Shown: positions 2,651-33,288 of the stretch, in pieces
Layout: the number at the start of each line of letters is the position of its first letter
Numbering within the stretch: position 1 is the stretch's first letter
Virus record (IMG/VR): IMGVR_UViG_3300015261_000001
Coordinates: 124,001 to 188,000 of that record
Length of the DNA: 64,000 nt
Source: a virus
Direction: 5' to 3' (one strand)
Notes under the pieces: model-generated
The model's input: the letters and a program-made list of their open reading frames with translations, nothing else
What the model was told of the DNA's origin: nothing
Databases searched by the model: none
Position numbers and translations under genes: made by a program

Positions 2651-2720
2651 CCTCGAAATCAAGCAGCCGCGGTATTGCCCCAGCCAAACAGTTTATTCAA
2701 CAGACCGTTCGACTGGGTTG

Positions 2721-2746
2721 TTACTTTGGGCTTTCAACTACCTCCT
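2721..2746 (-). promoter_or_regulatory. Putative -1 recoding signal (SD, spacer, slippery site, stop)
   Basis: Reading the minus strand: AGGAGG (2746-2741), spacer TAGTTGAAAG (2740-2731), heptamer CCCAAAG (2730-2724), TAA (2723-2721). This is the architecture known from E. coli dnaX, where AGGGAG lies 10 nt before A AAA AAG. No start codon at useful distance explains the AGGAGG. The extended frame continues to 2659. Confidence 0.65.
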
Positions 2747-3200
2747 GAACGCGAGGTTGGTTGGTTGGGTGCGAACGGCGATCCATCCGGCCGTACAGGT
2801 TCTGCAAAGAAACACCGATGTTTTGATCGATATCAAAGTCGGTGACTACCAAGCTGAACCGTGCGATCGAAAGGAAGCTGCCACCCAGCAAGAAGTCCAG
2901 AGCAGCGTTCGCGTTGTAAACCAGCGAGAACGATTGGGCTTTGCTGTTAGGAGCGTGACGTTCGTAAACCACCACGGTATCCAAACCAGTGCCGACCATG
3001 ATCAGTCGACGACCGCTTTCAGGATCACGCGATTTAACAACCTTACCAACAGCCAGTTTGTAATTTACAGCGCCATCGTAGTTGTCGCCATTGCCACCGC
3101 GCCAGTAGTCCTGGAAAGCCACGGACTCCTGGATACGGCCCAGAACGTTTTCAAAACGTTTAGCGAGTTCAAGACTTTCATCCAAAACTTTCAGGCTCAT
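2721..3200 (-). CDS. Unknown protein with probable programmed -1 frameshift extension
   Basis: 159 residues in the zero frame (AAGGAG 8 nt before the ATG), ending ...VVESPK. The last sense codons and stop are AGC CCA AAG TAA, containing the slippery heptamer C CCA AAG. A perfect AGGAGG lies exactly 10 nt upstream of it. A -1 shift reads past the stop for 21 more residues (VTTQSNGLLNKLFGWGNTAAA) to a TGA at 2659-2661, giving a 180-residue product. The domain is a mixed alpha/beta fold with no recognised motif. A strong early-type promoter (3245-3254) precedes it. An ordinary frameshift mutation or sequencing error that truncated a 180-residue protein is the alternative. Confidence 0.7.
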   Translation of the reverse strand: MSLKVLDESLELAKRFENVLGRIQESVAFQDYWRGGNGDNYDGAVNYKLAVGKVVKSRDPESGRRLIMVGTGLDTVVVYERHAPNSKAQSFSLVYNANAALDFLLGGSFLSIARFSLVVTDFDIDQNIGVSLQNLYGRMDRRSHPTNQPRVQEVVESPK

Positions 3201-3244
3201 GATGTATCTCCTTATAAAGAAATATTAGTAACTAATACACCATG

Positions 3245-3254
3245 GTAATATAGG
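3245..3254 (-). promoter_or_regulatory. Early-type promoter motif CCTATATTAC
   Basis: Minus strand: AGGCCTATATTACCATGG, 45 bp upstream of the gene starting at 3200. The leader contains a small ATTAG/CTAAT hairpin. It shares the decamer CCTATATTAC with the motifs at 32755 and 58219, and nine of its ten bases with that at 8627. The TATATTAC core matches my memory of the phiKZ early consensus. Confidence 0.6.
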
Positions 3255-3290: not shown

Positions 3291-3320
3291 CCCAGTACGC
3301 ACCTTACGGTGCGTACTGGG
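3291..3320 (-). terminator. Intrinsic terminator of the thymidylate kinase operon
   Basis: A perfect 13-bp stem (CCCAGTACGCACC / GGTGCGTACTGGG) with loop TTAC on the plus strand (GTAA on the transcribed minus strand), followed on the minus strand by a TAGTTGTTTTTATTTT tail. Confidence 0.9.
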
Positions 3321-32775: not shown

Positions 32776-33288
32776 ATGGACAACCAAGAGAAACCCAAGA
32801 AAGAATACAAAAAGGCCGAACCACTTGATATGGATAAAATGCAGAAGGTGCTTGAAGAGCTTCGCATTGCAATGGTCGGTACTGAAGAAGACGTGGATCA
32901 GGAAGCTCTGGTCAAGATGATCCAGAAGAACCGCGCCTTCCTGCTCGAGTACGCCATGGCGGCCTACCTGGACAACCCTCGGAACGGTGAACTGTTGGGC
33001 AGTGTGACCTCGATCATCGCTGCTCTGGAAAAGTGCGTTCGTGAAGATCGTAAAGAACGCATGAAGAAGAAGGACCAGGAAAACAACGCCATCGGCTTCA
33101 ACCAGATGATGGAAGCGCTGCAAAACATCTCCAACGGTGGTGTGCGCATGCCGGTGTTCGACTTCAAAGACTTCATCCTCGATCCGAACAAACCCATCAT
33201 GGAAACTGACGCTACGATGGACCCGATCAATGATGATGAGTTGGTCATGGGAAATGCGCTGGTCGATATAGATGGTCAAGCGGTATAA
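32776..33288 (+). CDS. Small acidic protein, possibly terminase small subunit-like
   Basis: 170 residues, no good RBS before the ATG at 32776. Residues about 62-100 (YLDNPRNGELLGSVTSI followed by a charged coiled helix, REDRKERMKKKDQE) resemble the central helical hairpin of T4 gp16-type small terminases (pattern N/S-PR then a helix). The C-terminal 50 residues are acidic. No large terminase is present in the window to support this. It could instead be an unrelated helical adaptor. Terminated by the hairpin at 33307. Confidence 0.45.
   Translation: MDNQEKPKKEYKKAEPLDMDKMQKVLEELRIAMVGTEEDVDQEALVKMIQKNRAFLLEYAMAAYLDNPRNGELLGSVTSIIAALEKCVREDRKERMKKKDQENNAIGFNQMMEALQNISNGGVRMPVFDFKDFILDPNKPIMETDATMDPINDDELVMGNALVDIDGQAV

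Follow-up and report, generated by a model that had tools for sequence, protein, structure and literature searches.

The gene, its reading frames and the slippery site

The window analysed here is a stretch of 64,000 nt (positions 124,001-188,000 of IMGVR_UViG_3300015261_000001; all coordinates below are window positions) and belongs to a 238-kb virus record of a jumbo phage related to Pseudomonas phage EL. Its minus strand carries an ORF of 159 aa (2721-3200, TAA stop included), preceded by an AAGGAG ribosome-binding site (3208-3213, minus strand), for which homologues with 48-62% identity were found. The nearest cultivated relatives of this gene are gp1 of phage EL and its kin (ca. 50% identity), one record of which is filed under Chimalliviridae, genus Elvirus. 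In the window as in the EL kin, a thymidylate kinase gene lies upstream and a gene for a small secreted-type protein lies downstream.

The ORF ends with GAA AGC CCA AAG TAA, in which the slippery heptamer C_CCA_AAG (2724-2730, minus strand) is directly followed by the 0-frame stop (2721-2723, minus strand) and occurs in the phase, agC CCA AAG, that suits tandem -1 slippage. From there, the -1 frame is open for 21 codons up to a stop at 2659 (extension and stop, 2659-2724, minus strand); it reads VTTQSNGLLNKLFGWGNTAAA and brings the total to 180 aa. An internal SD-like AGGAGG (2741-2746, minus strand) is located 10 nt (2740-2731) before the heptamer, with a predicted anti-SD duplex of -12.4 kcal/mol that ranks in about the top 1% of the background. 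All these elements had been brought together, in a sequence-only reading of the window, as a dnaX-like -1 frameshift cassette that would yield forms of 159 and 180 residues, and each of them is present at the position given there. The same reading held that the AGGAGG has no start codon to serve, which is true in practice since the nearest candidate, a TTG 3 nt after it, is too close.

A count over 60.7 kb of the window, in 64 ORFs that do not overlap, gave 25 in-phase heptamers of the X_XXY_YYZ type (Y = A/T). Two of these are C_CCA_AAG, and only the site at 2724-2730 has a stop immediately after it. This site is also followed by the strongest structure found downstream of in-phase heptamers (-22.5 kcal/mol), the others among those listed having values of -13.0 kcal/mol or weaker. 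On the plus strand, an in-phase GGGAAAT was noted at 33249, where a 170-aa ORF has 10 codons left to run and the -1 frame has 27 codons; its structure is weak (-6.1 kcal/mol) and its occurrence is probably due to chance.

A hairpin downstream of the heptamer

RNA folding predicts a 39-nt hairpin (2679-2717, minus strand) that starts 6 nt after the heptamer and is composed of 14 continuous pairs plus 3, with arms CCCAGUCGAACGGU...ACUGUUUGGCUGGG. This element was absent from the sequence-only reading and, added to the AGGAGG and the heptamer, it completes the order known from dnaX, namely SD-like element, heptamer and hairpin. Its start within 4-10 nt after the motif, its GC-first stem and its stability of at least 7.6 kcal/mol agree with the placement and strength rules described for downstream frameshift hairpins (PMC4066793). 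The predicted stability surpasses that of all but one of 200 dinucleotide shuffles (z -3.8). A search of Rfam for a frameshift RNA family returned only an unrelated match at chance level.

Relatives of the gene

Homologues of the window protein in IMG/VR were found in L003/L004 (62% identity in the alignment), L005 (61%) and L007 (48%), L003 and L004 being two assemblies of one virus kind that differ at 10 positions in 6.5 kb. Two diverged homologues, L038 and L039, were reached via the RNA polymerase gene of virus records. Scans of IMG/VR with other peptide patterns and with a DNA pattern of the cassette detected no further cassette-bearing lineage, and no relatives were found among the genome contigs searched. 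The layout with a stop directly after the heptamer is represented by only three independent lineages (window, L003/L004 and L005), two of which are close to each other (79% identity).

Several features of these genomes were recorded in passing. The thymidylate kinase gene of the window is followed by a near-perfect inverted repeat (3291-3320), and L003 and L005 have strong hairpins in a comparable position. In the L003/L004 virus, a diverged, paralogue-like ORF is located just upstream of the frameshift gene (L040, 1501-1734, record G002). In phage vB_PQ1, whose 184-kb record is called complete (PQ516283.1; L024/L025), the EL gp1 orthologue is unannotated and split over both record ends.

Conservation of the signal

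Across the window, L003/L004, L005 and the EL group, the heptamer does not vary (7/7), and this within a stretch that is otherwise poorly conserved. In L003/L004 and L005, which have ca. 60% protein identity to the window, the same in-phase heptamer is immediately followed by a 0-frame TGA, a hairpin and a homologous -1 tail (VNAQVEGFFNRFLSWAS in L003/L004 and VKPQETSLLDKLFAWGR in L005, as compared to VTTQSNGLLNKLFGWGNTAAA in the window). The three tails share the pattern xxQ...LL.KLF.WG, and shuffling gave p values of 0.0002 for window-L005, 0.0002 for window-EL and 0.0012 for window-L003; the L003 tail aligns weakly with those of L005 (p 0.034) and EL (p 0.13). Of the codon positions of the -1 frame, the second shows the least change in each of the three lineage pairs.

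The distance between heptamer and hairpin is 6 nt in the window and in EL and 5 nt in L003/L004 and L005, and in all four lineages the site falls within the best 0.6% of all 46-nt segments of the 64 kb. Double changes that keep the pairing affect 4 of the 14 consensus pairs of the alignment; pairing energies range from -17.0 to -22.4 kcal/mol when both arms come from one virus and from -5.2 to -19.5 kcal/mol when arms are mixed, own arms being better than nearly all mixed ones. When the tail was resampled with synonymous codons, structures as stable as the natural one were obtained in 137 (window), 50 (L003), 13 (L005) and 123 (EL) of 3000 draws, results that are modest singly and consistent together across the four lineages. 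Part of this effect is background, as ordinary gene pieces of the window already average z -0.47.

The alignment of relatives that the sequence-only reading had called for therefore shows the heptamer, the hairpin and both frames to be kept in L003/L004 and L005, the exception being the SD-like element: its anti-SD energy is strong in the window only, being moderate in L003 (-6.6 kcal/mol) and weak in L005 (-4.3 kcal/mol) and EL (-8.0 kcal/mol). We take the AGGAGG to be a local, lineage-specific booster and the hairpin to be the conserved stimulator.

Homologues L038, L039 and DT01 have no tail, which indicates that the wider family can do without it. In L007 (2447-2510), the heptamer is lost (G_GCA_AAG), an in-phase A_AAG tetramer is followed 4 nt later by a weaker, bulged hairpin, and after a -1 shift translation would continue only as far as AYGSTER; this site may represent either a weak remnant or an independent case.

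The frame arrangement in phage EL

In phage EL, gp1 (YP_418034.1) has 173 aa and its tail, GIPPSKVLSGFFGWGESA, is read in the 0 frame. The same in-phase heptamer is present and a hairpin occurs 6 nt later, with a spacer that is one base longer in the alignment. It is this additional base that brings the tail into the 0 frame, and a -1 shift would here produce the short form, ending GNTPV. A relative with a continuous frame through this point had been named beforehand as an observation that would speak against frameshifting and EL literally is such a relative; since heptamer and hairpin remain while the frame roles are reversed, it does not refute the proposed signal. A reversal of frame roles by a single-nucleotide change has been described for bacterial dnaX (PMC5009743), and the window and EL may by analogy be regarded as two states of a dnaX-like reversed pair in a phage gene, with shifting presumed in both. 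EL, too, would shift under this reading. The protein tree has too little resolution to tell which frame arrangement is ancestral.

Within the EL-like phages, HHBS8_1 (L011, 1956-2025) has one G fewer than the others in the G-run of the 3' arm, a change that alters the last residues to GWGSLLNI instead of GWGESA.

Alternative explanations

Because the tail is part of one uninterrupted frame in EL, the loss of a single base in the lineage ancestral to the window, L003 and L005 would give the present layout, and the -1 tail could then be an untranslated relic of a frameshift mutation, or the product of a sequencing error. This is very unlikely. Sequencing error, which the sequence-only reading had itself raised, is for practical purposes excluded by the agreement of four separate assemblies. 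As to decay, protein identity has dropped to 60% with the heptamer, the immediate stop and the hairpin still in place, homologous residues are retained in the -1 tails, and the two arms of the hairpin have changed together. Base error and decay are both contradicted by the two other divergent lineages, in which the heptamer, the stop right after it and a homologous tail in the -1 frame are kept.

Slightly less probable still is that the hairpin has a role in RNA processing, stability or termination and that the heptamer before it is coincidental. Hairpins are common near phage gene ends, and the upstream thymidylate kinase gene does end in a strong terminator-like hairpin (3291-3320). The hairpin discussed here, in contrast, is not followed by a U-run, sits inside the tail coding sequence and is held at 5-6 nt from an invariant heptamer in four lineages, whereas in L038, which lacks a heptamer, no hairpin occurs until further downstream, where a T-run comes after it. 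Finally, transcriptional slippage, stop readthrough and internal initiation can each give extended products in bacteria, but hardly any weight is left to them as routes to the -1 tail since the only runs, CCC and AAA, are too short for polymerase slippage, readthrough would remain in the 0 frame and stop after seven more codons, and the TTG 3 nt after the AGGAGG is out of phase with both the 0 and the -1 frame.

Proposed mechanism

Overall, the gene very probably carries a genuine signal for programmed -1 frameshifting, by which this EL-like jumbo phage would produce isoforms of 159 and 180 residues from a putative early-type gene. The claim of a dnaX-like -1 cassette is in this respect strengthened by the heptamer, stop and -1 tail conserved in two lineages, and by the hairpin. 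Ribosomes would decode ...AGC CCA AAG and, with tRNA-Pro and tRNA-Lys on CCA AAG, meet the hairpin 6 nt ahead, which would strain the mRNA; in the window phage, pairing of the AGGAGG with 16S rRNA behind would add to the strain. A fraction of the ribosomes would then slip back by one base and pair with CCC AAA instead. Those that do not shift would stop at the TAA and release the 159-aa form, while those that do would add 21 residues ending in the conserved LLxKLFxWG-type motif and release the 180-aa form. In EL the same signal would trim the tail off, with both isoforms kept and the frame roles swapped: shifting would lead to the long form in the window and its kin and to the short form in EL.

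Of 64 heptamers tested in E. coli, C_CCA_AAG was the most efficient, reaching 54% with the IS3 pseudoknot (PMC4066793). Judging from these data, the efficiency of the shift in the window gene is likely to be high, in the range of tens of percent.

The protein and its expression class

Pfam, PHROGs, sequence searches of the PDB, and AlphaFold combined with Foldseek provided no usable family for the protein, its best viral-fold matches being unnamed proteins. The label "repressor" that is found on some EL-like records received no support in these searches. The tail carries a conserved hydrophobic-aromatic motif, and in an AlphaFold model of the full EL protein the tail residues (141-173) have low confidence. 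A tail of this kind might act as a docking or membrane-binding peptide on part of the protein pool, which is the weakest step of our interpretation.

A promoter-like TATATTAC box (3245-3252, minus strand) precedes the start codon by 45 nt, and the sequence around it, GGCCTATATTACCATGGTG, has a similar counterpart at the corresponding position in L003, L005 and EL. TATATTAC is listed as the phiKZ predicted promoter, EL being given a different consensus (PMC7058600). The description of the gene as early-type, which the sequence-only reading had put forward, is thus plausible; the box suggests it, as a match to the phiKZ consensus from which that of EL differs.

Comparison with known frameshift systems

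The window cassette shares with that of E. coli-type dnaX an SD-like element, a heptamer ending in AAG, a hairpin and isoforms that differ by their C-terminal part. It differs in its heptamer (C_CCA_AAG vs A_AAA_AAG in dnaX), in the size of the extension (ca. 20 residues vs a third of the dnaX protein) and in that the SD-like element is not conserved among relatives. With dnaX as found in some other bacteria, where the frame roles are reversed, it has in common the swap of frame roles by a one-base change and the short-form stop directly after the site (PMC5009743). The gene itself was considered as a candidate dnaX clamp-loader AAA+ subunit and rejected, as sequence searches of Pfam, PHROGs and the PDB gave no match and the PDB fold search no confident one.

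The -1 signals of the IS3/IS911 type (PMC4066793) have a heptamer of the same class and hairpin rules with which the window hairpin complies, but the window gene encodes no transposase, nor is there a second large ORF to which a shift would fuse it. Like the lambda G/GT tail-assembly chaperone gene, it is a phage gene in which a -1 shift near the 3' end would give a C-terminally extended form; unlike lambda G/GT, it is putatively early-type and located beside a thymidylate kinase gene rather than a tape measure gene, with a short tail motif in place of a T domain. No PHROG or Pfam family match was found for a lambda-type tail-assembly chaperone, and this candidate was also discarded. EL gp1 and its EL-like orthologues share the locus, the neighbours, the heptamer and the hairpin, with the difference that the EL tail is in the 0 frame and that the -1 frame ends after GNTPV.

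The best known -1 frameshifts of phages affect tail-assembly and other structural genes, whereas the case described here would concern an early-type gene in nucleus-forming phages of the EL group. Literature searches of open text, which were not exhaustive, found no report of frameshifting in jumbo phages. The type of mechanism is already known, and the most interesting feature is the swap of frames between related phages. We lean, with some reserve, towards the view that EL-like nucleus-forming phages set the ratio of two early-protein isoforms via a high-efficiency -1 shift, and that both isoforms stayed under selection while the frame encoding the long form was swapped through a one-base indel in the spacer. 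The swap would then constitute a natural experiment on whether both isoforms, or their ratio, matter to selection, and it predicts that the cultivated phage EL makes a short product that has so far been left unannotated.
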